From: Eubacterium sp.
GTDB taxonomy: Bacteria; Bacillota; Clostridia; Lachnospirales; Lachnospiraceae
DNA: 62,280 nucleotides
Assembly: GCA_024692605.1 (NCBI GenBank)
Contig: JAILMQ010000154.1
Span: forward strand, 1-62,280
Direction: 5' to 3'
Positions 2 to 62,280 of this stretch are shown piece by piece (the stretch's first letter is position 1; every line of letters begins with the position of its first letter). The position numbers were made by a program, and so were the translations under genes. Below the pieces are notes generated by a model, which worked only from the letters and a program-made list of their open reading frames with translations, had not been told where the DNA came from and searched no databases.

Positions 2-2026
2 GAACGTAATATACTTTTGACATCCCTGGGCAATTCATGGGATAGAAAATCACATAGGTATTTTTATATCAAAGATGGAGAAACTACCAGATACTGTGAT
101 GGACTCTGTATCGGTGAGGCAGGAGCAAAATACATTCTTTCCTGCGTTCCCATTGATGAAATAATAGTTTTAGGAAATGGAACTATTTATGAGGATGGCG
201 AGGAGTATAAATCTCTGGTGCTTAAGGACTGGTCGGATTTTCAGTCTGAAAGTACAGATTCACTTTCCGAATACAGTTTCTTCCAGTACAGATTATCACA
301 GTTCCTTGATGGACTTGATATGGAAGCGGTAGATGTTATGGAGGATATTGATCCTGAAAGAAGAGAAGTGATAGTGGATGCATTCCAGAAATTCTGTCAG
401 GATTCAAACAGTGCAAATAATGTTTTAAGGTTAGATAAGGTTTTCCATAACCTTTCACAGGATTTTTCACTGTATGACAAAATGAAAACTTACCTTCCGG
501 CTATGTCAGATAAAGAAATGCTGTGGCTGGAGAGATACATTTACTCACAGCTTGCAGAAAGCAATAAGCTGTCAGCTCTTGATCAGAATCATGACATAAG
601 GATGTGCTTTGTTCCTACATCCTCAAAACATAGGGGCTATGTACCTATGAAGGATGTTAATCAGATTGTAGATACCATAGAAGCCTTTGAGGGAGATATT
701 ATAAATCTTTATATAGATATGCAGGGACTTGATACCGGAGATGGTTATACTGTACTTGCTGTACTTTCTATGCTGGGTAATGACCAGAACAGTCCTATCT
801 GTATAAAGGAAATTATATCCAGCCACTATGAGCCGGGACTTTTTGCCAATATGATCGATAATGACGAAATGAGTCGTTATGATATAAATCAGCTTGTATC
901 CGGAATGAGTGCATTTATCCAATATGGAAAGGTGGATCAGGTTCGTGCTTACTGGCAGGAAAGTGGTTTACATAATGATCATATTGAAAAACTCCTCTAT
1001 GCCATGAGGCTGGTTGATGAGGGAGTATCCCTTTGTAACATATCCGATCTGGAACGAGGCGTAAATCTGCTGAGAGAGGTATTTGCTACAACTCCGGAAG
1101 AGGGACTGAATGAGCTTGAAACCAATGTTATCGGAGTGATTCAGGAGGGTATCCGAAAGGATTACGGAGCTCTTCTGGAAGGCGATAAGCTTGATGAGCT
1201 GGAACTTGTAAAGTGGGCACTTAGGAAGAAATTCTATCAGCAGTCCCTTACAATTGTAGAGTCCAGAATGCCTGAGCAGTTTGTAAAGAATGGAATGTTT
1301 TATTACGCAGTTGATGCAGAGACAAAGCAGAATCTCCTTGAAGTTATGGGAAGAAAATATTGGGAAACAGCTCCAAAGGACAGATGGGGATTCAAACATT
1401 TTAATCATTATTTTGTTAAGTTCTACGGAAGAAGTGAACAACCACGTGGAAGGGGAATAACTGATCCTCAAAAATCATTTACTGATTTTCGAATTAATTC
1501 CTTGACTGATGATTCAAAAATCTCCAAGGCCTATTCCAGGTTAAGTGATAATCCTGAGATTCTTTCAGATCTTATGTATTCCTATTACAAACTTGGAGAT
1601 GTTCGAAATCGCGTAAATCATGCAGATGACAGCGAAGTAATAATGGGCGAAATTGATTATGATGCTGAAAATGAGAATATCAAGCTTTTAACAGAAGGCA
1701 TCAACCGATTTGTTTATTGCTATGAGAAAGCTCTTAAATATATTGAAGAGCATAAGGATGAAGAATATAGTATAGAATTTTTGGATTATGATGAATTGAT
1801 TGCATATGCTAATTCTCATAGAAATGAATTGCAGAAAAAAGAGTCTTCTCCTAAGGGACCTAATCCTCAGAATTACAACAAAAATTTCAATAAAAATAAC
1901 AATAAGAACGGTAAATATAATAAAAATTATTGCAATAATAATAAAAATAATTATAATAATAATCATGTTACAGTTCAAAATGGAAATGGTAAAAAAGTTC
2001 ATATTACCATTGAATTTGAAGACTAA
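2..2026 (+). CDS. CARF/TM1812(Csx1-like)-family protein, 5'-truncated by window edge, Asn-rich C-terminal tail
   Basis: Frame is open to the window edge (upstream codons give ERNILLTSLGNSWDRKSHRYFYI), resembling the N-terminal beta-strand/LGxG of TM1812-type CARF proteins; internal NLYIDMQGLDTGDGYTVLAVLSML at the position of the 'iDITHG' motif; RYDINQLVSGMSAFIQYGK. Confidence 0.5.
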   Translation, partial: ERNILLTSLGNSWDRKSHRYFYIKDGETTRYCDGLCIGEAGAKYILSCVPIDEIIVLGNGTIYEDGEEYKSLVLKDWSDFQSESTDSLSEYSFFQYRLSQFLDGLDMEAVDVMEDIDPERREVIVDAFQKFCQDSNSANNVLRLDKVFHNLSQDFSLYDKMKTYLPAMSDKEMLWLERYIYSQLAESNKLSALDQNHDIRMCFVPTSSKHRGYVPMKDVNQIVDTIEAFEGDIINLYIDMQGLDTGDGYTVLAVLSMLGNDQNSPICIKEIISSHYEPGLFANMIDNDEMSRYDINQLVSGMSAFIQYGKVDQVRAYWQESGLHNDHIEKLLYAMRLVDEGVSLCNISDLERGVNLLREVFATTPEEGLNELETNVIGVIQEGIRKDYGALLEGDKLDELELVKWALRKKFYQQSLTIVESRMPEQFVKNGMFYYAVDAETKQNLLEVMGRKYWETAPKDRWGFKHFNHYFVKFYGRSEQPRGRGITDPQKSFTDFRINSLTDDSKISKAYSRLSDNPEILSDLMYSYYKLGDVRNRVNHADDSEVIMGEIDYDAENENIKLLTEGINRFVYCYEKALKYIEEHKDEEYSIEFLDYDELIAYANSHRNELQKKESSPKGPNPQNYNKNFNKNNNKNGKYNKNYCNNNKNNYNNNHVTVQNGNGKKVHITIEFED

Positions 2027-2055
2027 GATACTTAAATAAAGATAAGGAGAAGAAT

Positions 2056-2355
2056 ATGTATCCAAATAAAAGAGAAGATGGTGTGTTGACAATTGAACTT
2101 CCTGACAGAATTGATTCTGTTACGGCAGCAGATGTTGAAGTTAATATCATGGGTATTGTAGATGGCGGTGAGCAGGATAGTCTTATACTTGATGCTGTAA
2201 ATCTTGTATATATTTCCAGTGCCGGACTTAGAATTGTCCTTAAGCTTTTAAAGAAGATCAAGAACGTTTCCGTTGTTAATGTTGATGGAGATATTTACGA
2301 TATTTTCAGTCTTGCTGGATTTACCAATATGATGGTAGTAGAAAAGAAGAATTAG
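2056..2355 (+). CDS. STAS-domain anti-sigma factor antagonist-like protein
   Basis: 99 aa with STAS-like core 'LILDAVNLVYISSAGLRIVLKLLK'. Confidence 0.85.
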   Translation: MYPNKREDGVLTIELPDRIDSVTAADVEVNIMGIVDGGEQDSLILDAVNLVYISSAGLRIVLKLLKKIKNVSVVNVDGDIYDIFSLAGFTNMMVVEKKN

Positions 2356-2378
2356 TTAAAAAGTTTTATAATGATTTT

Positions 2379-2408
2379 AAATCGAGTAGGGTATTCCCTA
2401 CTCGATTT
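2379..2408 (+). terminator. Intrinsic terminator-like hairpin
   Basis: Inverted repeat aaatcgagtaggg/ccctactcgattt after the STAS gene. Confidence 0.75.
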
Positions 2409-2432
2409 GCATATTAATATAAGGAGCAGTTT

Positions 2433-3596
2433 ATGAATAATTTTTTCAAGGATGAAAAGATCAGGAAAAATATTTTTACAGGAACTGTACTTATTATTGT
2501 CCTTTTTTTAGCTTTAAATATTAAGATTGTTGCCGATAAGATAGGAGATGTAATCTCTATTCTATCACCCTTTATATTGGGGGCGGCTATAGCATTTATA
2601 TTAAATGTTCCAATGACTGCATTGGAAAGAGTTATGTCCAGAAGAAAACTTTTTGCAGATGGTAAAAGAAAAGGATTTAAGAGAGTTCTTGCTATAATAA
2701 TTACATTATTCCTTGCAATTCTGATCATAGCAATATTGCTGAATATGATAATACCTCAGCTGGTAGATACCATATCACAGCTGATAAAACAGATTCCCAA
2801 GGGATACAGGAATGCGACCAAATGGTTCGATGATACCTTTGAAAGATTTCCAATTATTCTTGATATTGTAGATACTGTAGCAGTTCACTGGAAGGGTATT
2901 CTTGAATCAGCAGCATCCTTCTTAAAGTCATACATTAACGGTCTTCTTGAAGGTGGAGTTGATGCTGTTACAGGAATTGTATCCGGTCTTCTTAATTTTG
3001 TAATCGGATTTATTTTCTCAATATATATTCTTGCTCAAAAAGAGAAACTTGGTCTGCAGGGCAGAAAGATTGTATATGCGCTGCTTAAGAAAAACAAGGC
3101 AGATCAGGTCATGAGATTATTAGGAATTACAAAGAAAACATTTACCAATTTCATATCCGGACAGTGTGTTGAAGCAATAATTCTCGGATCCATGTTCCTG
3201 GTAACTATGTTACTTCTCAGAATTCCTTATGCTCCACTGGTAAGTATGCTTATAGCGGCAACTTCACTTATACCTATTGTGGGAGCCTTCATAGGATGTG
3301 GAATAGGAGCGCTTCTGATATTGATCCAGAGTCCTGTAAAGGCACTCATTTTCCTTGTGCTGTTTATTGTTTTACAGCAGATTGAAGGAAATGTAATCTA
3401 TCCGAAGGTGGTTGGTAGTTCAGTCGGACTTCCCGGAATGTGGGTTCTGGTTTCGGTTACCGTAGGTGGAAGCTTTTTCGGAGTTGTGGGAATGATAGTT
3501 TTCATTCCGCTGATTTCAGTATGTTATGCACTTTTCAGAGAGTATATCTATAAAAAGCTTGATGATAAGGGAATAAGAAAAGACTTTATCGAATAA
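2433..3596 (+). CDS. AI-2E family transporter (membrane permease)
   Basis: 387 aa, multiple TM segments, C-terminal 'LQQIEGNVIYPKVVGSSVGLPGMWVLVSVTVGG' typical of the UPF0118/AI-2E exporter family. Confidence 0.85.
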   Translation: MNNFFKDEKIRKNIFTGTVLIIVLFLALNIKIVADKIGDVISILSPFILGAAIAFILNVPMTALERVMSRRKLFADGKRKGFKRVLAIIITLFLAILIIAILLNMIIPQLVDTISQLIKQIPKGYRNATKWFDDTFERFPIILDIVDTVAVHWKGILESAASFLKSYINGLLEGGVDAVTGIVSGLLNFVIGFIFSIYILAQKEKLGLQGRKIVYALLKKNKADQVMRLLGITKKTFTNFISGQCVEAIILGSMFLVTMLLLRIPYAPLVSMLIAATSLIPIVGAFIGCGIGALLILIQSPVKALIFLVLFIVLQQIEGNVIYPKVVGSSVGLPGMWVLVSVTVGGSFFGVVGMIVFIPLISVCYALFREYIYKKLDDKGIRKDFIE

Positions 3597-3653: not shown

Positions 3654-6323
3654 ATGAAATATTACTTAGAAGATTATGAGGCGGTGCTGACTGAAAAAAA
3701 ATCAAAACCCAATGGTATTTCAGAAAGCGATGCTAAGGCCAGAATAGATGAGTTTGGTCAGAATAAACTGGTTGAGAAGGAAAAGGAAAGCGTTTTTAAA
3801 AAGTTTTTAAGAGAAATATGTGAGCCTATGACCATAGTTCTGATAATAGCTGCTATTATATCTGCAATTACAGCTGTGTTTTCAGGTGAAGGCTTCGCTG
3901 ATGTATTTATTATTCTAACAGTAGTAATTGTAAATGCTGTACTTGGAGTATATCAGGAATCAAAGGCAGAGTCTGCCATTGCGGCTCTTCAGGAAATAGC
4001 AGCAGCTACGTCTAAGGTTATCAGAGATGGGGAAGTAAAGGTTATTCCTTCTGCTGAACTTGTTCCCGGAGATATTATCTCCCTTGAAGCAGGTGACAGT
4101 GTTCCGGCAGATGCCAGAATTATTGAAGCTGCATCCCTTAAGGTTGAGGAGGCAGCTCTTACAGGAGAATCTGTTCCATCTGAAAAAACTGCTGATAAAC
4201 TGTCAACGGAGGGAGCTACAGATGTTCCTCTTGGAGACAGGGCAAATATGATATACATGGGTTCTTCAGTTCAGTATGGACGTTGTAAGGCGGTTGTTAC
4301 TGATACCGGAATGTCCACTGAGATGGGTAAGATAGCTGATCAGTTATCACAGGCCGGTGATGAAGAAACACCTCTTCAGATTAAACTTAATGAACTTTCA
4401 AAGATTCTTTCCATAATGGTACTTGTTATCTGTGCTGTAATCTTTGGAATCAATATAATCCGTAATCTTGTAACAGGAGAGGGACTGAACGGCAAATTCT
4501 TCCTGGATACATTTATGATTGCAATATCCCTTGCAGTTGCAGCAATCCCTGAGGGACTTGCAGCAGTAGTAACCGTTCTTCTTTCTATCGGTGTTACACA
4601 TATGTCTAAGAACCATGCCATCATCAGACGTCTTACGGCAGTTGAAACTTTGGGATGTACTCAGATCATATGTTCAGATAAAACAGGAACACTTACACAG
4701 AACAAGATGACAGTTGTTGAGCATGTTACTCTTACTGATGAGGAAATGCTTATAAAGGGAATGGCTCTCTGCTCAGATGCTGAATGGGAAACTGATAAAG
4801 CAGTGGGAGAGGCTACCGAATGTGCTCTTGTAACAGATGCTGCGAATAATGGTCTTCCTAAGGGTGAGCTTAAGGAAAAGTACGAACGTGTTGGCGAAGC
4901 TCCTTTTGATTCTCTTAGAAAAATGATGACAACCATTCATAAGAATCCGGAGGGTGGATATATACAGTTTACTAAGGGTGCTCCTGACTGTGTACTGGAT
5001 GCCTGCAGCTTCTATATGTATGGAACAGATATAAAAGATCTTGATGCTGAGGTATTAGGGGATATTAAGGAAGCTAACAAGGGTATGGCGGATAAAGCAC
5101 TTCGTGTTCTGGCCCTTGGCTATAAGAAACTTTCAGAGATTCCTTCGGATCTTTCCCCGGAGGCACTTGAAAAGGATCTTGTATATATCGGTCTTTGCGG
5201 AATGATCGATCCAATAAGACCTGAGGTTAAGGTTGCTATAGAGCATTGCCGCCAGGCAGGTATTCGTCCTGTGATGATCACAGGTGACCATAGAGATACA
5301 GCTGTTGCCATAGCAAAGGAATTGGGAATTCTTGAAGGTAAGGCTGAGGATGGAAGCAGCGTTACTTATGAAGCTATCACAGGTGCTGAGCTTGAAGAAC
5401 TTTCCGATGAATATTTTGCTGAACATGTTGGTGATTATTCTGTTTATGCAAGAGTTCAGCCTGAACATAAGGTTAGAATTGTAAATGCATGGAAGGCTAA
5501 AGACAAGGTTACTGCCATGACAGGTGACGGAGTTAATGATGCTCCTTCTATCAAGTCAGCTGACATCGGTGTAGGAATGGGTATTACAGGAACTGACGTA
5601 ACAAAGAATGTTGCAGATATGATCCTGACAGATGATAACTTTGCAACCATTGTTGCGGCGGTAGCAGAGGGAAGAAGAATCTATGACAATATTCGTAAGT
5701 CCATACAGTTCCTGCTTTCTTCGAATCTTGCAGAGGTAATTGCTATATTTATTGCTACAATACTTAATTTCGTAATTCTTAAACCGGCACACCTTCTGTG
5801 GATCAATCTTATTACAGACTGTTTCCCGGCGATAGGCCTTGGTATGGAAGAAGCAGAAGCAAATACAATGACGCAGGAACCTAGAAATAAAACAGATGGA
5901 ATATTCTCCGGTGGACTTGGCTTCGACGTTGTGTTCCAGGGACTTATTATAGCAATACTTACAGTATTATCTTACCTGATAGGACATTATCTGGAATCAG
6001 GTACCTGGACATTTACAACCTCAAATGATGGAATGACAATGGCTTTCCTGACACTTTCTCTTACAGAGGTATTCCACAGCTTCAATATGAGATCCAGAAG
6101 AGCATCACTTTTCAGTCTCAAGAAGCAGAATAAGGTACTTTGGGGAACACTTATTCTTTCACTTGTGCTTACAGTATTGATTCTGTACGTACCGGTGCTG
6201 AGAAATCTATTCTCCTTCACATTTATAGATCTTAAAGAGTTTTCTATTGCCCTTGGAATAGCAGTTTCAATAATTCCTATTGTCGAGATTATAAAACTGA
6301 TCCAGAGAAAGATGGAGAAATAA
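3654..6323 (+). CDS. Calcium-translocating P-type ATPase
   Basis: 889 aa; DKTGTLTQNKM phosphorylation motif, 'MTGDGVNDAPSIKSADIGVGMG', 'PEGL' TM4 motif. Confidence 0.92.
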   Translation: MKYYLEDYEAVLTEKKSKPNGISESDAKARIDEFGQNKLVEKEKESVFKKFLREICEPMTIVLIIAAIISAITAVFSGEGFADVFIILTVVIVNAVLGVYQESKAESAIAALQEIAAATSKVIRDGEVKVIPSAELVPGDIISLEAGDSVPADARIIEAASLKVEEAALTGESVPSEKTADKLSTEGATDVPLGDRANMIYMGSSVQYGRCKAVVTDTGMSTEMGKIADQLSQAGDEETPLQIKLNELSKILSIMVLVICAVIFGINIIRNLVTGEGLNGKFFLDTFMIAISLAVAAIPEGLAAVVTVLLSIGVTHMSKNHAIIRRLTAVETLGCTQIICSDKTGTLTQNKMTVVEHVTLTDEEMLIKGMALCSDAEWETDKAVGEATECALVTDAANNGLPKGELKEKYERVGEAPFDSLRKMMTTIHKNPEGGYIQFTKGAPDCVLDACSFYMYGTDIKDLDAEVLGDIKEANKGMADKALRVLALGYKKLSEIPSDLSPEALEKDLVYIGLCGMIDPIRPEVKVAIEHCRQAGIRPVMITGDHRDTAVAIAKELGILEGKAEDGSSVTYEAITGAELEELSDEYFAEHVGDYSVYARVQPEHKVRIVNAWKAKDKVTAMTGDGVNDAPSIKSADIGVGMGITGTDVTKNVADMILTDDNFATIVAAVAEGRRIYDNIRKSIQFLLSSNLAEVIAIFIATILNFVILKPAHLLWINLITDCFPAIGLGMEEAEANTMTQEPRNKTDGIFSGGLGFDVVFQGLIIAILTVLSYLIGHYLESGTWTFTTSNDGMTMAFLTLSLTEVFHSFNMRSRRASLFSLKKQNKVLWGTLILSLVLTVLILYVPVLRNLFSFTFIDLKEFSIALGIAVSIIPIVEIIKLIQRKMEK

Positions 6324-6348
6324 GGATAAGGAAATAATAGCAGAATTA

Positions 6349-6390
6349 GAAAAGGTTGACACCATATGTGATATGGAGTCAACCTTTTTT
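6349..6390. terminator. Bidirectional terminator between convergent genes
   Basis: aaaaggttgac ... gtcaacctttttt inverted repeat. Confidence 0.75.
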
Positions 6391-6426
6391 TGAATTTGTA
6401 TTAATTTAAAGTTGTCTTTGAATGGT

Positions 6427-7683
6427 TTATATTAATTCCGCAAGGTCAGGGAAGATTTCCAGACTTCGTTTCAATATGCCATTCATATATGCAATGGCTG
6501 TTCCGTAATTCGTTATTGGTACATTTTGCACACCGGCTCTTTCATATCTGGACTTAGCTTCTGTAGGAGTAAGCATACATGCGCCGCAGTGTATTATCAG
6601 CTTGTAATCAGAAAGATCTTCCGGGAATTCGGTTCCGGAACTAAGGTGTATTTCAGGCTCGCATCCTGTAAAATCCTTGATCCATTTCGGTAGCTTCACA
6701 GAACCTATATCGCCGCATTGACGGTGATGTGTACAGCCCTCACTTATAAGTATCTTGTCACCATTCTGAATAGACTTAATCTTTGAAGCACCAATAACGG
6801 AAGGGTAGAGGTTACCCTTATACCTGGCCATAAGTATTGAAAATGAAGTAAGAGGTATTCGCTTAGGTACGAGCTTACTTACCTTACCAAATGCCTGGGA
6901 ATCTGTTATTACCATTCTTGGATCTTCCTTAAGTGAGAAAAGGGTTTCTTCCAGTTCACTATCCCTGCACATAATAGGTATAGCTCCGTGATCCAGAGCA
7001 TCCCGGATAACCTGCTGCTGGGGGAGTATCAGACGTCCCTTTGGAGCTGCCTTGTCAATGGGTATAACCAGAACTATCTTATCCCCCGGCTGAATAAGGT
7101 CGCCAATCAGTTCATTTTCCTGAGGGCTTTCCTTTATCAGCCTAGCGGCAGTTTCCTTAAGTGTGTCAATATTTGTTCCCGAGGTGGCACTGACATAGAT
7201 TATATTTTCGGTGTCACTGGTTTGCGTTATGTTAACTGACTCTTTATTCGTGTCTGTATTTTTAGCTGATAATGAATCCTTGCCTTGGATTATGTCAACT
7301 TTATTATAAGCGATTATATAAGGTATTTTTTTCTCCTTATATATGTCTATAAGCTCTTTGTCTACAGATGAGATGCCGATGGAAGAGTCTACAACAAGTA
7401 TGGCTATGTCAGTTTTATTCAGCACCTGCTTTGTTTTTTCAACTCTAAGTTCACCCAGGGTTCCCACATCATCGATTCCCGGTGTATCTATTATCACTAC
7501 AGGCCCCAGCGGAAGTAACTCCATGCTTTTGCTCACGGGATCGGTAGTAGTACCTTTTGTATCTGAGACTATTGAAAGCTTTTGACCGGTAAATGCATTT
7601 ACCAGACTTGATTTACCTGCATTCCTGCATCCGAAAAAAGCAATATGTTTTCGTTCGCCGGATGGGATATCATTTAAACTCAT
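6427..7683 (-). CDS. hydF: [FeFe]-hydrogenase H-cluster maturation GTPase HydF
   Basis: 418 aa; GxxxxGKSS P-loop (FFGCRNAGKSSLVNAF), C-terminal Cys cluster region 'CTHHRQCGDIG ... IHCGACML'. Confidence 0.93.
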   Translation of the reverse strand: MSLNDIPSGERKHIAFFGCRNAGKSSLVNAFTGQKLSIVSDTKGTTTDPVSKSMELLPLGPVVIIDTPGIDDVGTLGELRVEKTKQVLNKTDIAILVVDSSIGISSVDKELIDIYKEKKIPYIIAYNKVDIIQGKDSLSAKNTDTNKESVNITQTSDTENIIYVSATSGTNIDTLKETAARLIKESPQENELIGDLIQPGDKIVLVIPIDKAAPKGRLILPQQQVIRDALDHGAIPIMCRDSELEETLFSLKEDPRMVITDSQAFGKVSKLVPKRIPLTSFSILMARYKGNLYPSVIGASKIKSIQNGDKILISEGCTHHRQCGDIGSVKLPKWIKDFTGCEPEIHLSSGTEFPEDLSDYKLIIHCGACMLTPTEAKSRYERAGVQNVPITNYGTAIAYMNGILKRSLEIFPDLAELI

Positions 7684-53166: not shown

Positions 53167-54897
53167 ATGAGTATTTATAAATCAGAAAAAAGCAGAAATG
53201 TTTCCAATACCGTAATGAATAAAGTGTTCAACAAAGTTGTGGTGGAAAGAGGGAAGAAGGCGGTACATTCACTGGATGTTGCAAGTAAAAATGCTGTAAA
53301 GCTTCAACAGGAATGTCTGATGAAATTAATTGAAGATAATAAGGATACTGAATACGGCAAGATGTATGATTTTGCGAATATTCACAGTATTGAGGATTAT
53401 CAGAAGAAAGTTCCTCTGACTGACTATGACGATTATGCTCCATATATCAAAAAAATGGTGGAAGACGGAGAGAATAATCTGATAACAGCATCAGAACCAA
53501 AGCATTATGCCATTAGTTCCGGAAGTATTGGAGTACCGAAGCATATTCCCGTTACCCAGGCTGAGATAGATAAGTATTCTAAATACGGACCGGGGATGGC
53601 TTTTGGTGTTATGGATGAATATTATCGTAATACCACAGGTCACAGCTTTAAGTATGGACTTGGAGCCAATATGGTAGAGCTTAAATCCCAGGTTACACCA
53701 TCGGGAGTATCCATGGGTTCTATATCGGGAAATGTATTAAATAGTTTGAAAAGCTTCATAAAGTTTTTCTTCCAGCCGCCATGGGAAGTAATCTGTCCCG
53801 ATGATGATATTGATGTCAAGTACCTTAGAGCCAGATTCATACTTCAGACCAGAAATATAACCTACATCGACGGAGCTTTTATGACCGCACTTGTTGATTT
53901 TATGGATTATATCAAGGACAACTGGGAAATGCTCTGCAAGGATATATATCATGGCAGAATTAACAGCAAGATTGCTATTCCTGAAAAAAGCAGAGAACTC
54001 TTCGAACTTATGATTGAGCCGAATCAGGGCAGAGCAAGAGAACTGGTCAGAGAGTTTAGAAAGGGTATGGAGGGAATAGTACCGCGTATCTGGCCTAATA
54101 TACAGTTCGTTGCAAGTATCGGTACCGGCGGATTTTTCACATATTCAACAAAAATGAAATACTATACGGGAAGAAATGTCCCATTTTATAATATGTTGTA
54201 CGGAGCTTCGGAGGGACTTGTTGCAGTTGCAAGACATGCCGAGGATAAATCTTATGTATTGATACCTGATGGAGGTTTCTATGAGTTCATTCCTGTAAAG
54301 GACGACGAAGAAGATAAGATACTTACTATTGACAAGCTGGAAGAGGGTGAATCCTATGAAATCATATTTACTAATCTTTCAGGACTGTATCGATATAGAA
54401 TTAAAGATGTCGTTCGTGTAACAGGATTTTATAATGAATCTCCTAAGATACAGTTTGTCTATCGTAAGAGCCAGATGATCTCGATAGCAGGTGAGAAGAC
54501 AAATGATGAGGCTTTAAGATGGGTTATCAAACAGTTTATCAAGGATACAGGCGTAGAAGTGAGTGATTACAGTATTTATGCAGATACTGATTCTGAACCG
54601 GGACGTTATGTATTCCTTATCGAACCTAATGAAGTGGTTCCGCAGGAAAGGATACCTGAATTAAGGGATACTATTGAGGCCAGAATGATGCAGGCAAATC
54701 CATCTTATGGAGATAAGATCCGAAACGGAGTTTTATCTCCGGCAAGACTGGTGATCCTTCAGCAGCAGACATATATGCTTTACAGAGATTTAATGATAAT
54801 GAAGGGTACATCTGCTAACCAGCTGAAACCGGTCAGAGTTATAGATACACCGATGAAGGAGGCGTTCTTCTTCAGCTTAGAGGAAAAATATAATTAA
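53167..54897 (+). CDS. GH3 (auxin-responsive promoter) family adenylating/acyl-amido-synthetase-like protein (start set at 53167; ORF track start 53116)
   Basis: P-loop-like 'AISSGSIGVPKHIPVT', 'YGASEGLVAV', 'GLYRYRIKDVVRVTGF' correspond to the three adenylation motifs of plant GH3 (SSGTSxGxxK, Y(A/G)SSE, YRxGD). Confidence 0.85.
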   Translation: MSIYKSEKSRNVSNTVMNKVFNKVVVERGKKAVHSLDVASKNAVKLQQECLMKLIEDNKDTEYGKMYDFANIHSIEDYQKKVPLTDYDDYAPYIKKMVEDGENNLITASEPKHYAISSGSIGVPKHIPVTQAEIDKYSKYGPGMAFGVMDEYYRNTTGHSFKYGLGANMVELKSQVTPSGVSMGSISGNVLNSLKSFIKFFFQPPWEVICPDDDIDVKYLRARFILQTRNITYIDGAFMTALVDFMDYIKDNWEMLCKDIYHGRINSKIAIPEKSRELFELMIEPNQGRARELVREFRKGMEGIVPRIWPNIQFVASIGTGGFFTYSTKMKYYTGRNVPFYNMLYGASEGLVAVARHAEDKSYVLIPDGGFYEFIPVKDDEEDKILTIDKLEEGESYEIIFTNLSGLYRYRIKDVVRVTGFYNESPKIQFVYRKSQMISIAGEKTNDEALRWVIKQFIKDTGVEVSDYSIYADTDSEPGRYVFLIEPNEVVPQERIPELRDTIEARMMQANPSYGDKIRNGVLSPARLVILQQQTYMLYRDLMIMKGTSANQLKPVRVIDTPMKEAFFFSLEEKYN

Positions 54898-54948
54898 AAA
54901 ATATAGGAAATAAATATAATTAAAAAACACGAAAGGCAGGGGTGTGGT

Positions 54949-55830
54949 ATGAAAATATGGATTATAAGCGGAGCAATTGTAAAAGCAGATTCATGGAAAA
55001 AAATGGTAGCAGATGAAGATGGGCTCCTGCAGAAATATGGTATTGAATTTGAGGTGTATAGAAGGACTGAAATCGTCTATATCATGGGCGGAGACGGGAA
55101 AATAACCTTTTATGCTGATGGTAAAGAGGTTGCTGCCCCGGATGCATTTTTATTATATGGAAACATAGACGGCGCTATGGAAGGTATTGACAGTGCGCTT
55201 ACAGCTTCAGGGGCAAAGTCCATAAATCCTGCAGCATCGAAGAGAATTGCTGAAAGCAAGCTTAAGACTGCTATACTTTTTGATAAGGCAGGTCTTCCTC
55301 AGGCAAAAACAATGCCTATCTTCAAAAATACACCTATTGAGATCATTAAACAGGAAATAGGGATTCCGTTAATAGTAAAGCCTGATGGTGGCTTTGGAGG
55401 AAAAGGAGTTGAACTCATCAAAACAGAAGAGGAGTTACAGAAACTCCTTGACGATATGCCGGAAGTTGTAGATGATGTTATGCTCGCCCAGAAGTATATT
55501 AATACTTCAAAGGGAAAGGATCTTAGAGTGATTTTAGCAAACGGAAAGTATTTTACATCAAGTGTAAGACAATCGGGCAATCCTGATGAATTCCGTTCAA
55601 ATTGTCATCAGGGTGGGCATTATGAAGACTATGATATTGACAAAGAGACAGTAGAACTTTGTGAAAATGCAGCAAAAGTTGCAGGGCTTGGACTATGTGC
55701 GATTGATCTTTTGTTTGCGGAAAAGGGTTTTGTGATCGGTGAGGTAAATGATTCACCGGGAATGGCGCTGCTCATCAGAAAAGCAGGTATCGGAACCTTT
55801 ATAAAAGCACTTATGGGAACAGTACGTTAA
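54949..55830 (+). CDS. RimK-like ATP-grasp ligase
   Basis: 'IGIPLIVKPDGGFGGKGVELI', 'GKDLRVILANGKYF', 'NPDEFRSNCHQGG', 'GFVIGEVNDSPGM' ATP-grasp signatures. Confidence 0.9.
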   Translation: MKIWIISGAIVKADSWKKMVADEDGLLQKYGIEFEVYRRTEIVYIMGGDGKITFYADGKEVAAPDAFLLYGNIDGAMEGIDSALTASGAKSINPAASKRIAESKLKTAILFDKAGLPQAKTMPIFKNTPIEIIKQEIGIPLIVKPDGGFGGKGVELIKTEEELQKLLDDMPEVVDDVMLAQKYINTSKGKDLRVILANGKYFTSSVRQSGNPDEFRSNCHQGGHYEDYDIDKETVELCENAAKVAGLGLCAIDLLFAEKGFVIGEVNDSPGMALLIRKAGIGTFIKALMGTVR

Positions 55831-55874
55831 TTTGCTGATAGATAAGCTTTTAGCATGAAAGAGTAGGTGATCAT

Positions 55875-57623
55875 TTGTTTGGATTACTAGGACGATATCT
55901 GAAGAGTTTCTGGAAGCAGATGTTACTGATATTTATCTTTACAGTTGCGCAGGCAATTGTACAGACCTCGCTTCCTAAATATTTTAATGAGATAATAAAA
56001 AAAGGCGTGTCAAAAGGTGACGTTAAGTACATCTGGCACGTTGGTATTATTATGCTTTCACTGACAGTCGTTCTTGGTATCTGCATGATGATTGCCGGTT
56101 ATTTTTCTGCATATGTGACAGCCAGCTTTACTACCAGTATCCGCTCTGATCTTTTCAGAAAAATACAGAAGTTTTCAGACCTTGATTATGTGAATTATTC
56201 AAAAGAAACACTTCTTACAAGAGCCAATTCAGATACTACCCAGATGCAGGTGGTAGTTATTAATATGCTTAGGAATGCCATGCTCGTTCCTTTTATTGCG
56301 GTATTTACATTTATCAGATGTATTATGCTTGATGCGCCACTGTCATTTGTACTTGTTTTGGCACTGGTGATAAGTACATTTATTGTAAGGCGGGGTAACA
56401 AAAGAAGTATGCCGCACTTCCGTATGCTTCAGGACAAGACTGACAGAGTAAGTACACTTATGAATGAGAAACTTACCGGTGCAAGATCTATAAGAGCTTT
56501 TAGCAGACAGGATTATGAGGTGGAGAAGCTTTCAAAGGCAAATGAGGATGTACGTGATACTGCCATTGAAGCAAATAATTATATAGTTCATCTGATGCCG
56601 ATTGTACAGGTTATAATGAATCTGGTTATCGTGCTGATACTGATTCTCGGACCTTTCCAGTTAAAGAGCAAATCAGTTGAACTGGCAGACCTTATGACAT
56701 TTATCCAGTACAGCAGTATGCTGGCTTCGGGCTTTGCGACTATTATGGCTATAGTTAATGCACTTCCGAAGTGCGAGGTTTCAGCTTCCCGTATAAAGGA
56801 AATCCTTGATTATGAAGTACAGGAAGAGATGCCGGACAGTGAAGCTATGAAGGTTTCAGATCCTAAGGGTGAGATAGTATTTAAGGATGTTAGTTTTGGC
56901 TACAGCGGAGCAGATGAAAATGTATTGCATGATATAAATCTTGTGATCCCTGCAGGGAAGACTACTGCAATCGTGGGTGCGACGGGAAGCGGAAAGTCAA
57001 CACTGCTTAAGCTTATTCCGATGTTTTTTGATAATCGTTTTGAGGGAAATATTTTTATAGACGGTGTTGATACAAAGAAGATGAAAACTCATGATATCAG
57101 GGATATCATCTCATATGCACCGCAGAAGGCAAATCTTTTCTCCGGTACTGTCGAAAGTAATCTGAAGGTGGCAAAACCGGATGCTGATTCGGAGGATATA
57201 AAAAAGGCCTGCGATATGGCCTGTGTTACAGAATTTCTTGAGGCAAAGGAAACGGATGCGAGTCTTGTTCTTACTCAGGGAGGCGGTAACCTTTCGGGAG
57301 GACAGAGACAGAGAGTATCTGTAGCGAGAGCCTTTATCAGAGATGCTTCCATCTATCTTCTGGATGATACGTTCTCTGCCCTTGACTTTAAAACTGATGC
57401 GGCGGTAAGAAAGGCTATGTACCGCGAACTGGCCGGAAAGACAATAGTAGTTGTTGCCCAGAGAGTTGCTACTATAATGAATGCTGACAAGATAGTAGTA
57501 ATGGATAAAGGAAGGATAGTTGCCGAGGGTACTCATAAGGAAATCCTGGATAGTTGTGAGATATATAAAGAAATATACGAGACACAGACGGGTCTTGAAG
57601 ATAAGGAGGGCAGAGCTTCATGA
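55875..57623 (+). CDS. ABC exporter half-transporter A (degenerate Walker B/H-loop, canonical signature)
   Basis: TTG start; Walker A GATGSGKST; signature LSGGQRQRV; Walker B 'IYLLDDTFSALD'; switch-loop 'VVAQRVATI' (Q replaces H). Confidence 0.93.
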   Translation: MFGLLGRYLKSFWKQMLLIFIFTVAQAIVQTSLPKYFNEIIKKGVSKGDVKYIWHVGIIMLSLTVVLGICMMIAGYFSAYVTASFTTSIRSDLFRKIQKFSDLDYVNYSKETLLTRANSDTTQMQVVVINMLRNAMLVPFIAVFTFIRCIMLDAPLSFVLVLALVISTFIVRRGNKRSMPHFRMLQDKTDRVSTLMNEKLTGARSIRAFSRQDYEVEKLSKANEDVRDTAIEANNYIVHLMPIVQVIMNLVIVLILILGPFQLKSKSVELADLMTFIQYSSMLASGFATIMAIVNALPKCEVSASRIKEILDYEVQEEMPDSEAMKVSDPKGEIVFKDVSFGYSGADENVLHDINLVIPAGKTTAIVGATGSGKSTLLKLIPMFFDNRFEGNIFIDGVDTKKMKTHDIRDIISYAPQKANLFSGTVESNLKVAKPDADSEDIKKACDMACVTEFLEAKETDASLVLTQGGGNLSGGQRQRVSVARAFIRDASIYLLDDTFSALDFKTDAAVRKAMYRELAGKTIVVVAQRVATIMNADKIVVMDKGRIVAEGTHKEILDSCEIYKEIYETQTGLEDKEGRAS

Positions 57624-59368
57624 AAAAGAAGAAAAAGCGCTCCTCATTTGTGAGACTTATGCGTTATATGGGTCGGGACCGCAAGATGGTAGCGATAATA
57701 ATTCTGCTACTTACACTCAGTACAATATTTGATATAGCGGCACCGAAGATTGTTGAAAAGATTACTGATTCCATTAAATTATCTGAAGGGATAGGCTTTG
57801 ACTGGGATTATCTGACAAAGCAGCTCATAATCCTGACACTCCTATATATACTATGCGGTGTATGTCTTAGCATATCAAGAAAAGCACTTGTTAAACTGGC
57901 AGAGAATACGGTTTTCTCATTAAGACAGCGTATGCAGAAGAAGCTTGAGGTACTGTCCCTGGATTATCTCGATACACATAAAAGAGGAGATATCCTGGCC
58001 AGATCAACTTCAGATATGGTAATGATAACAAACATGCTCGAAACAAATCTGTCTTCCATGTTTGTTAAGCTGCTTACGATAGCCGGAATCCTGGTCATGA
58101 TGTTTGTGACCAATATTAAGCTGTCGATTATCTTTGTAATAATGCTTCCTTTAAGTGTTGTGGTTATGAAGTTTGTCACCAAGGCCACAAGAAAACTCTT
58201 CAAAGGTCAGCAGCAGGCTCTTGGAGACCTTAATTCACATATTGAGGAAATGGTAACCGGAAATGATGTTATGAGAGCCTTTAATTTCGAGGAAGAATCC
58301 GGTGAACAGCTTGATAAGATTAATATGCGGTTTTTCAAAACCTATCTGTCATCGCGTACCCTTTCCGGCGTGATACATCCTATCATGTCACTTTTGAATA
58401 ATTCAGTATATATTGCAGTATGTGTATTTGGTGGTATGGCGATAATTAATAATTCACTTACTTTGGGAGGACTTACAGCATTTCTGCTTTACGCAAATAA
58501 TATATCCGGTCCTGTAAATCAGTTTTCTATGATGATCAATCAGGTTCAGGCCGGACTTGCTGCGGCTGACAGGGTCTTTGATATGCTTGATGAAGAGCCT
58601 GAGAAACCGGATCCGGAAAATGCAGTGCAGATAGAGGATTCGGATGGAGTAGTTGAATTTTCACATGTTAAGTTCGGATATTCATCAGATCAGATTCTTA
58701 TGAAAGATGTAAATTTCAAGGCTGATGCAGGACAGGTATTTGCTATAGTCGGACCATCCGGTGCCGGAAAGACCACACTTGTGAATCTTCTTATGAGATT
58801 CTATGAGATAAACGATGGTGCAATCAGGCTTGACGGTATGCCGACTTCTGAGATGACAAGACAGAGCCTCAGAAAAAATATGGGTATGGTTCTTCAGGAT
58901 ACATGGATATTCTCAGGTACCGTATTTGAGAATATAGCCTACGGAAAACCTGATGCAACCATGGAAGAAGTTGTTGAAGCGGCGAAGAAGGCGCAGTGTG
59001 ATGACTTTATCAGAAAACTTCCGGATGGATATGACACAGTGATAGATGCTGAAACATCAGCTCTCAGTACGGGAGAGAAACAGCTTCTTGCAATAGCGAG
59101 AGTTGTTATTGCAAATCCACAGATACTGATTCTTGATGAGGCAACAAGTAACATAGATACACGAACGGAAGTTCTTATAACAAATGCTATGAACGAAATG
59201 ATGAAGGGACATACATCATTCATAATAGCTCACAGACTGTTTACGATAAGAAATGCAGACAGCATTATATTTATGAAGGATGGAGATATCCTTGAGGTAG
59301 GAAAACATAACGAGCTTATGGAACGTGGTGGTTATTATGCGGAAATGTACCGCAGTTCATACAGCTGA
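57620..59368 (+). CDS. ABC exporter half-transporter B (canonical Walker B/H-loop, degenerate signature)
   Basis: Walker A GPSGAGKTT; degenerate signature 'ALSTGEKQLLAIARV'; Walker B 'ILILDEATSNID'; 'FIIAHRLFTI'. Overlaps preceding gene by 4 nt. Confidence 0.93.
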   Translation: MKKKKKRSSFVRLMRYMGRDRKMVAIIILLLTLSTIFDIAAPKIVEKITDSIKLSEGIGFDWDYLTKQLIILTLLYILCGVCLSISRKALVKLAENTVFSLRQRMQKKLEVLSLDYLDTHKRGDILARSTSDMVMITNMLETNLSSMFVKLLTIAGILVMMFVTNIKLSIIFVIMLPLSVVVMKFVTKATRKLFKGQQQALGDLNSHIEEMVTGNDVMRAFNFEEESGEQLDKINMRFFKTYLSSRTLSGVIHPIMSLLNNSVYIAVCVFGGMAIINNSLTLGGLTAFLLYANNISGPVNQFSMMINQVQAGLAAADRVFDMLDEEPEKPDPENAVQIEDSDGVVEFSHVKFGYSSDQILMKDVNFKADAGQVFAIVGPSGAGKTTLVNLLMRFYEINDGAIRLDGMPTSEMTRQSLRKNMGMVLQDTWIFSGTVFENIAYGKPDATMEEVVEAAKKAQCDDFIRKLPDGYDTVIDAETSALSTGEKQLLAIARVVIANPQILILDEATSNIDTRTEVLITNAMNEMMKGHTSFIIAHRLFTIRNADSIIFMKDGDILEVGKHNELMERGGYYAEMYRSSYS

Positions 59369-59415
59369 TTATTATAAAAAGTCATAGATATTGATATATG
59401 CAGAAAGGGGAGACT

Positions 59416-61950
59416 ATGAAGGGTTGGTTCTTAACGAGTGGAAAATTTCAGAAAGCAGTAGGACGACTTCTTGATAATGTTGATTTAAAGGGAGTTACAC
59501 TTGAAATAATTAATTGTGAGGAGATTTCTTATGGTATTGATAATAATCTTCCTGCACTTTTATGGAAAAACGGCGAGGCTATTACACCTCCGGATTTCTT
59601 CTATATAGCCGACAGTGACGGCGAAAACGGAGTAGTTTTCCCTCTGGCCCGTCAGCTTGAAGCTATGGGATCATTAAATTACAATCCTATAGAAGCAAAG
59701 CAGATAGCTATGAGTAAGATTGCTACATATCAAGTTCTTGCAAAAGAAGGGCTTCCGATAGTAAAAACTATTGTTTTCAGAAAGAACATGGATGAAGAGC
59801 TTCTTAAAAAGCAGATTGGTCTTCCTATGATCATTAAGCCGGATGACGGATTCGGTGGTGAAGGCGTCGAGCTGATTCAGACAGAGGAGGAGCTTAGGGA
59901 GGCATTAAGCAGAATTAAAGAATCTGATGCAAGGTTCTTGGTTCAAAAATATGTGGCATCCTCAAAGGGACGTGATGTCAGAGTTCTTACAATAGGTTTT
60001 GAAGCAGTATTTGCTGCTCAGCGTAAAGCTTCAGATCCCAATGAGTTCAGATCCAATCTTCACATGGGCGGTACCTCCGAGGAATATCCACTTACTGACG
60101 AAATGAAGGATATCTGCGGAAGAGCATCAAAAGCTATAGGACTTAGAATGGCCGGTATCGATCTGTTATTCGGGGAAAATGGTTTTGTTATTGGTGAAGT
60201 TAATTCAAGTGCGGGATTTGATTCATGGATGGGAAAGAAGGATCTTGTTTCTGTCTTTATGAAGGATCTTCAAAAACAGCTTATGAAAAGACCTCTGGCA
60301 CATTGGAGAGCTTTGGAACTGAAGGCTGCCGCACGTAAGATGCAGCTATCTAAAATATTACTGGGTCTTGATGACTATGGATTTATAAAAGCAGAACAGA
60401 TGCTTCTGTCAGATTGTAAGTCGACTCAGGAAGCTGTCCTTATGGAGATGGTTTCTGCAAATAAGGATACTGAGTTCGGAAAAGCTCATAATTTTGCGGA
60501 TATAAAATCAGTTGAAGATTATAGAAAGAATGTTCCGCTTTCAGACTGGGATGATTATGCAGATTATGCGGAAAGAATGCAGAATGGAGAAGCAGATATT
60601 ACTTTCCCGGGAAAAGCAACATTTTTCTATCGGACCTCCGGTACGACTGCCGCATATAAGTTTATTCCTGAGAGCGAGAGAGAGGCTATTTCCAGAAAGG
60701 CAATATCACGTGCCAGAAATACTGAGATATTCCTTATGACCTCTCAGAAGGCTGCAAATCGTATCTTCGCATTTTTCAACAAGTCTTCTCTGGATAAAAC
60801 ACCTGCAGGAATTCCATGCGGTACAGCGTCGGGAAGATCCTCTGAACTTGCAAATCAGGAACTGATAAAGCGTCTTACCTATGTTCCTCAGGTTGTAAAT
60901 GAATTTGAGGGTGAGGAGCTTCTCTATGTAATGCTCAGATGTTCTATCTGCTACAGTGACGTTACGGCTCTTCTCGGAAATAACGCTCTTATGATGAAGA
61001 ACCTTGTTGAATTTGCAAAAAACAATGCCCTCGATCTGATAGAAGATATAAGAAACGGAAGCTGCAAATATGAGATGTCTGATTCTCTGAAGGAAATGTT
61101 AAAAGAATCTCTTACACCGAATCCTGCAAGAGCAGATGAACTTCTTACATTATATAATGAAGGACATTTCACACCTAGATATTATTGGAAGTATCTTATG
61201 GCAGCAGGATTCTGGCTTGGCGGAAGTGTTGGTGTATATGTAAATGAGGTTCGTCCTCTGCTTCCTGAAACAACAAAGTATATAGATGTAGGATACGGTT
61301 CAAGCGAGACAAAGATAAATATTCCTACAAAGCCTGAGACACCAGCCGGTGCCCTTGCTACATTCTGCAGTTTTTATGAATTTATTCCTGAAGAGGGTGG
61401 AGAGCCGCTTATGGCACATGAGCTTGAAGAGGGAAAGAATTATGAGCTGGTTCTTACTACAAATGCAGGATTATACAGATATAAGCTGAAGGATCTGATC
61501 CATGTCGATAGCTTTACGGGAAATACACCTAATATATATTTTGTTACAAAGATTTCTGATGTTGCAAATCTTGCACAGGAGAAGATTCCGGGTTCGATGC
61601 TCAGCGGGGCTGTACGTGATACAGTAAACGAAATGGGACTCGAACATGTTATGACTCAGGTTTATCCTGATGCTGATTCCAAGAACTATGTAATATGTAC
61701 CGAGATTAAATCCATTCCGGATGATATGGCAGCTTTCGAAGAAAAACTGGATGAAGGCCTTAGAAATAAACTAGAGCAGTATGATATCTACCGCGGTAAG
61801 CTCCTTAATCCACTGAAGGTTAAACTGATGAAGAAGGGCTGGTCCGAAAGCCTGATGAAGAAGTTTGCAAGAGGTAATGCAACTGTGGCTCAGGTAAAGG
61901 TTCCCGTTATTATAAAAGAGATGCCGGATGATGAATGGATTGCAGAATAA
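59416..61950 (+). CDS. ATP-grasp ligase / GH3-family adenylating enzyme fusion protein (start set at 59416)
   Basis: N-terminal ~300 aa ATP-grasp 'IGLPMIIKPDDGFGGEGVELI ... GRDVRVLTIG ... NEFRSNLHMGG ... GFVIGEVNSSAGF'; C-terminal ~550 aa GH3 'FYRTSGTTAAYKFIPES', 'YGSSETKINI', 'GLYRYKLKDLIHVDSF'. Confidence 0.87.
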   Translation: MKGWFLTSGKFQKAVGRLLDNVDLKGVTLEIINCEEISYGIDNNLPALLWKNGEAITPPDFFYIADSDGENGVVFPLARQLEAMGSLNYNPIEAKQIAMSKIATYQVLAKEGLPIVKTIVFRKNMDEELLKKQIGLPMIIKPDDGFGGEGVELIQTEEELREALSRIKESDARFLVQKYVASSKGRDVRVLTIGFEAVFAAQRKASDPNEFRSNLHMGGTSEEYPLTDEMKDICGRASKAIGLRMAGIDLLFGENGFVIGEVNSSAGFDSWMGKKDLVSVFMKDLQKQLMKRPLAHWRALELKAAARKMQLSKILLGLDDYGFIKAEQMLLSDCKSTQEAVLMEMVSANKDTEFGKAHNFADIKSVEDYRKNVPLSDWDDYADYAERMQNGEADITFPGKATFFYRTSGTTAAYKFIPESEREAISRKAISRARNTEIFLMTSQKAANRIFAFFNKSSLDKTPAGIPCGTASGRSSELANQELIKRLTYVPQVVNEFEGEELLYVMLRCSICYSDVTALLGNNALMMKNLVEFAKNNALDLIEDIRNGSCKYEMSDSLKEMLKESLTPNPARADELLTLYNEGHFTPRYYWKYLMAAGFWLGGSVGVYVNEVRPLLPETTKYIDVGYGSSETKINIPTKPETPAGALATFCSFYEFIPEEGGEPLMAHELEEGKNYELVLTTNAGLYRYKLKDLIHVDSFTGNTPNIYFVTKISDVANLAQEKIPGSMLSGAVRDTVNEMGLEHVMTQVYPDADSKNYVICTEIKSIPDDMAAFEEKLDEGLRNKLEQYDIYRGKLLNPLKVKLMKKGWSESLMKKFARGNATVAQVKVPVIIKEMPDDEWIAE

Positions 61951-62230: not shown

Positions 62231-62280
62231 TTTATTTGAGAGTTTGATCCTGGCTCAGGATAAACGCTGGCGGCGTGCTT
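62231..62280 (+). rRNA. 16S ribosomal RNA, 5' end (truncated by window edge)
   Basis: 'gagagtttgatcctggctcaggataaacgctggcggcgtgctt' conserved 16S 5' sequence (27F primer site). Confidence 0.97.

Follow-up and report, generated by a model that had tools for sequence, protein, structure and literature searches.

What could a bacterium build with two GH3-family enzymes, two ATP-grasp domains and a dedicated-looking exporter encoded side by side? The question arises from positions 53167–61950 of a 62,280-nt stretch of Eubacterium sp. DNA (contig JAILMQ010000154.1, assembly GCA_024692605.1), which we refer to as the window. Five intact genes lie there, closely spaced on the forward strand: a GH3-family gene (GH3a), a stand-alone RimK-like ATP-grasp gene (AG), two ABC half-exporter genes (ABC1 and ABC2), and a gene for an ATP-grasp–GH3 fusion (AG-GH3b, its GH3 part being GH3b). 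The initial annotation had described a tightly packed, same-strand block with half-exporter genes overlapping by 4 nt and a fused ligase at its end; the open reading frame (ORF) listing agreed on each of these points, and Pfam confirmed every domain.

We read the locus as a compact cluster for making and exporting a small amide, with a probability of roughly 0.6. The likeliest product would be an N-acyl amino acid or short N-acyl peptide, assembled independently of nonribosomal peptide synthetases (NRPSs). The proposed chemistry is modeled on relatives, namely plant GH3s, the bacterial enzyme OlsH, and RimK.

A core shared by nine loci

Absence of the neighborhood from all other genomes had been named beforehand as one of the findings that would refute such a pathway; instead, the neighborhood proved to be conserved. 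A locus from another genus (L061) has the same five-gene order, with 55–73% identity per gene, and a core of GH3a, GH3b, ABC1, and ABC2 was found at nine loci (the window, L047, L049, L061, L069, L075, L077, L085, and L086). Its recurrence shows that the arrangement did not arise by chance. The nine loci come from three families (f1, f20, and f56) plus a rabbit-gut metagenome-assembled genome of Clostridia (L047). This last locus, the sole relative obtained from the contig scan, has no solo ATP-grasp gene, an ABC1 missing its first part, and a broken GH3a frame; it is therefore decayed or misassembled and was counted for the core only. Four further loci (L076, L081, L083, and L084) carry GH3a-type genes and an ABC pair, lack GH3b, and have ABC1 proteins of a distinct clade. 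ATP-grasp genes lie between the GH3a-type and ABC genes in the three intact ones; L084 is damaged.

Phylogenetic trees linked the core genes further. A tree built by a quick method from 75 GH3 domains placed GH3b of the nine core loci in one exclusive clade, with a Shimodaira–Hasegawa-like approximate likelihood ratio (SH-aLRT) support of 99, and GH3a in a wider clade that included some solo GH3 genes. ABC1 of the same nine loci also formed one clade (bootstrap 100, SH-aLRT 99) in a tree that set them against 14 ABC paralogues, taken from the same genomes or from relatives. In whole-genome searches of five genomes (G160, G300, G366, G471, and G543), the top match of ABC1 was the GH3-adjacent copy, ahead of other ABC exporters. 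The core genes of the nine loci share ancestry. Forcing all 13 ABC1 proteins of GH3 clusters into one clade gave a P value of 0.38 in the approximately unbiased test; a single clade of 13 is thus neither shown nor rejected, and we claim common ancestry for the nine only. The conserved neighborhoods, the matching GH3b and ABC1 clades in several families, and the ABC1 top matches beside GH3 support the earlier proposal that GH3, ATP-grasp, and the ABC pair form one system.

The third activity beside the core is exchangeable. It consists of a stand-alone plus a fused RimK-like ATP-grasp in the window and L061, tandem RimK-like ATP-grasps in L077, L085, and L086, a PGA_cap protein in L049 and L069, and, in L075, an NRPS module (A-T-C) composed of adenylation, carrier, and condensation domains. 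The NRPS module occupies the ATP-grasp position, in keeping with an amide or peptide product. At the amino-group-binding Asp position of the adenylation domain, L075 has Ile (a call from one alignment), a residue suggestive of a substrate that lacks an alpha-amino group; two other A-T-C proteins near GH3 genes have Val (L051) and Asp (L064). The L049 PGA_cap protein matched the MslH peptide-epimerase model weakly (34.8 of 700 bits). MslH is presented in PMC10406935 as a metal-dependent epimerase acting on a lasso-peptide C-alpha, and possible epimerization by the L049 protein is only a lead.

Both GH3 matches of the source genome are at this locus. Within the genus, 16 of 61 genomes gave a GH3 match; a family sample gave 49 of 397, and a class sample 26 of 392. 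The weakest matches in these counts (E about 1e-4 to 1e-8) are possibly not genuine GH3s, and surroundings were mapped around the strong ones. The 70 GH3 loci gave 32 same-strand runs that include an exporter (an ABC pair, MATE, or MFS); in 16 runs, a second ligase accompanies the exporter. Up to three genes away from GH3, ABC half-exporters, MATE, RimK, SpoIIE, and STAS were enriched (P from 1.4e-7 to 0.0013), values that are indicative only, because the test ignores relatedness, some loci were selected because they had two GH3 genes or long ones, and the proteins used as reference were drawn from the same loci whose remaining genes served as background. NRPS and GT2 genes were not enriched within the same distance at these loci.

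Enzymes and exporter of the window

All three GH3 Pfam domains (N-terminal, central, and C-terminal) passed the curated cut-offs in both GH3a and the fusion. For GH3a, the E-values for GH3, GH3_M, and GH3_C were 1.5e-72, 3.8e-27, and 4.9e-20; the fusion matched RimK (7.9e-32) and GH3 (6e-54) together with GH3_M and GH3_C. GH3a aligned to plant GH3.12, JAR1, and auxin GH3s across ~520 residues, and GH3b aligned to plant GH3s more weakly. Nucleotide-binding motifs I, II, and III were present in both when aligned with plant GH3s and homologues: GH3a retains SSGS-G-PK, YGASE, YRYRIKD, and GEKTN with its lysine, and GH3b retains TSGTT...K, GYGSSE, and YRYKLKD. While the domain set and motifs are those of plant GH3s (JAR1/GH3.11, PBS3/GH3.12, and auxin GH3s), the plant proteins are single enzymes acting on hormones and benzoates, whereas the window combines two GH3s with an exporter and fuses one of them to an ATP-grasp domain. 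Plasmid records contained distant GH3s only (21–28% identity). A structure prediction of the fusion from a two-sequence alignment failed, with a mean predicted local distance difference test score of 34, and was set aside.

AG passed the Pfam RimK cut-off (1.5e-27). In alignments with RimK-type glutamate ligases it keeps FRSNxHxGG and EVNDSPG, and the FRSNxHxGG and EVN residues are retained in both AG and the fusion. Against TIGR00768 (cut-off 143.4 bits), the fusion scored above the threshold (151.8 bits) and AG just below it (132.2 bits); neither reached the specific equivalog cut-offs of RimK-type ligases. The window's version resembles RimK, LysX, MptN, and CofF in domain and motifs but differs in being fused to a GH3 domain and placed in a GH3/ABC operon. 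Judged from these alignments, the catalytic motifs of GH3a, GH3b, and both ATP-grasp domains are intact.

ABC1 has a degenerate-type Walker B (DDTFSALD) and the H-loop AQR; ABC2 has DEATSNID, AHR, and a non-standard signature, LSTGEKQLL. The best solved-structure matches were TM287 for ABC1 and TM288 for ABC2. The two halves, with one degenerate and one catalytic site, therefore have the makeup of a heterodimer and the same division as TM287/TM288-type exporters, from which they differ in that ABC1 falls in a clade tied to GH3 clusters.

Pfam found no condensation, carrier, or ketosynthase domain in the five proteins, in line with the initial annotation, which had reported no NRPS, polyketide synthase (PKS), or carrier-protein gene nearby. 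No PADLOC model matched GH3a, AG, or the fusion, and the ABC genes matched by their ATPase domain only; a known anti-phage defense function, considered as a candidate, has no support.

What the locus may make

In the proposed pathway, GH3a would adenylate a carboxylic acid and transfer the acyl group onto the amine of an amino acid. A RimK-like ATP-grasp unit would convert a free carboxylate to an acyl-phosphate and append one more amino acid, which may be glutamate if RimK is a guide. GH3b would make a further amide, its fusion to an ATP-grasp domain coupling two successive steps, and the ABC1/ABC2 heterodimer would export the product. Free-standing ATP-grasp ligases can assemble peptides without an NRPS, as in the case of dapdiamide. 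The window would likewise form amide bonds without carrier proteins, with the difference that it joins, and even fuses, adenylating GH3 ligases with ATP-grasp enzymes.

Several observations favor a secreted N-acyl amino acid or peptide: the recurrence of the core with matching nine-member GH3b and ABC1 clades, the ABC1 top matches that adjoin GH3 in five genomes, a third slot holding only amide- or peptide-compatible modules, the enrichment of exporter and RimK genes beside GH3 genes, the activity of OlsH (below), and some solo GH3 genes that adjoin amide-hydrolase-type genes (AAT/CBAH in L019, Amidohydro_3 in L021). Other points weigh against it. The distribution is patchy within the genus, where only the 16 genomes given above have any GH3 match. 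ATP-grasp is not obligatory, since in the clusters with PGA_cap the core is not accompanied by any ATP-grasp gene. Pumps resembling TM287/TM288 can act as multidrug exporters of a general kind, and no dedicated gene for an unusual acid or amino acid was found at the locus. A broader proposal, to which we give slightly less than even odds, is that these loci form a Clostridial cluster class with an inherited core of two GH3s and a dedicated heterodimeric exporter, an exchangeable ATP-grasp, NRPS, or PGA_cap module, and, as output, a new family of secreted acyl-peptides made without a classical assembly line.

Among bacterial reactions that have been demonstrated, the one closest to the window's GH3s is that of OlsH from Singulisphaera acidiphila, a GH3-like lyso-ornithine lipid synthetase that forms N-acyl-ornithine from a fatty acid, ornithine, and ATP (PMC12493201). 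Described in 2025, it is the only bacterial GH3 with a demonstrated reaction that we found in the open literature. The window's GH3s belong to the same family, are recognizable by the OlsH model, and would likewise join an acid to an amino acid with ATP, but OlsH is partnered by a hydrolase-fold acyltransferase, OlsI, whereas the window's GH3s stand beside ATP-grasp ligases and an ABC pair. This precedent, together with the N-acyl amino acids noted in gut Clostridia (PMC12493201), speaks for an aminolipid pathway, in which the GH3s would attach a long-chain fatty acid to the amino group of an amino acid, the ATP-grasp would extend the headgroup, and the ABC pair, rather than secreting the lipid, would flip it across the membrane. 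The best NCBIfam match of both ABC proteins, the MsbA lipid-exporter model, also points that way, although it fell below its cut-off. We nevertheless regard this pathway as unlikely: against the OlsH model NF052613, GH3a scored 105 bits (E 3.6e-30) and the fusion 87.5 bits (7.1e-25), short of the equivalog cut-off of 620 bits, the operon has no O-acyltransferase gene, and the NRPS module in L075 speaks more for a peptide than for a membrane lipid.

Detoxification, with the ligases coupling amino acids to a harmful carboxylic acid and a multidrug-type ABC pair expelling the conjugate, is more doubtful still. Plant GH3s conjugate hormones and thereby inactivate them, and TM287/TM288-like transporters resemble multidrug exporters, yet two GH3 and two ATP-grasp units exceed the need of one conjugation, and sister clusters have NRPS or PGA_cap modules instead of ATP-grasp. 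Modification of the envelope or capsule, in which the ligases would place amino acids or acyl groups on a surface polymer or precursor exported by the ABC pair, draws on the PGA_cap proteins of sister clusters and on GT2–GH3 fusions in glycan-like clusters with an ABC pair, but is very improbable, given that those fusions form a separate GH3 clade (SH-aLRT 98) with different ABC1 proteins, PGA_cap occurs in only two of the nine core clusters, and the window's five-gene locus has no glycosyltransferase or polymerase gene.

A search of the open-access literature, with subscription papers and cluster databases outside its reach, found no description of GH3 combined with ATP-grasp or of GH3 in biosynthetic clusters; priority is therefore not proven. 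The locus brings known enzyme families together in a conserved and apparently undescribed combination, in some Clostridia including gut species. A conserved core of two GH3 ligases and a dedicated exporter, with interchangeable ATP-grasp or NRPS units, would allow amide and peptide metabolites to be predicted, in gut bacteria included, that may escape tools searching for NRPS or PKS domains. The role of bacterial GH3s also becomes testable with a single five-gene construct.

Gene boundaries and other GH3 neighborhoods

Positions of the genes in the window and of the A-T-C NRPS proteins near GH3 genes at other loci
Locus	Feature	Position	Strand	Description
Window	GH3a	53167..54897	+	GH3-family acyl-acid amido synthetase, 576 aa
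Window	AG	54949..55830	+	Stand-alone RimK-like ATP-grasp ligase, 293 aa
Window	ABC1	55875..57623	+	Half-exporter, degenerate-type, TM287-like, 582 aa, TTG start
Window	ABC2	57620..59368	+	Partner half-exporter, TM288-like, 582 aa
Window	AG-GH3b	59416..61950	+	ATP-grasp–GH3 fusion, 844 aa from likely start
L051	NRPS	119–3142		A-T-C protein
L064	NRPS	3848–6931		A-T-C protein
L075	NRPS	4379–7342		A-T-C protein

A GAGGAG ribosome-binding site lies 5' of the GH3a ATG. The mechanical ORF start of the fusion is 59398, where no clear ribosome-binding site was found. The start is likely 59416, because GGGGAG lies 5' of that ATG and both close homologues start there. Measured from this position, the gap between ABC2 and the fusion is 47 nt; those between GH3a and AG and between AG and ABC1 are 51 and 44 nt. 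These gaps and the one overlap leave too little room for a usual precursor peptide, as the initial annotation had argued, and no such gene of a ribosomally synthesized and post-translationally modified peptide was found beside the enzymes in the region up to the contig end. Promoter-like matches (35) were not clearly above those in shuffled sequences (27.5, standard deviation 5.7). Upstream of the locus, galK- and galT-like galactose-metabolism genes lie in divergent orientation. About 285 nt 3' of the fusion, AGAGTTTGATCCTGGCTCAG marks the 5' end of a 16S rRNA gene, and the contig stops ~45 nt into it (62236–62280); the cluster is therefore directly upstream of an rRNA operon, and genes downstream of the fusion are out of view.

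STAS and/or SpoIIE genes flank the GH3/ABC clusters L061, L069, L077, and L085, to which partner-switch regulation may therefore apply; none is visible at the window's locus. At ten other loci (L020, L023, L027, L051, L055–L058, L071, and L095), Clostridial GH3 genes stand beside MATE, a SpoIIE phosphatase, and STAS, sometimes with ATPgrasp_ST, a combination of GH3 with partner-switch genes that recurs. The MATE protein of L020 has a C-terminal HATPase_c_2 domain, which suggests direct transporter control. At L064, the NRPS gene is on the strand opposite to GH3.

The ~850-aa GH3 proteins of L026, L040, L062–L064, and L066–L068 were considered as ATP-grasp–GH3 fusions and excluded, as Pfam identified them as GT2–GH3 fusions. 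At L026, L066, and L067, their neighbors include glycosyltransferases, esterases, and an ABC pair. At L102 (1158–7637), a locus from a different family of the phylum, tandem GH3b-like genes follow three ~700-aa proteins, the first of which is a type I phosphodiesterase/nucleotide pyrophosphatase.

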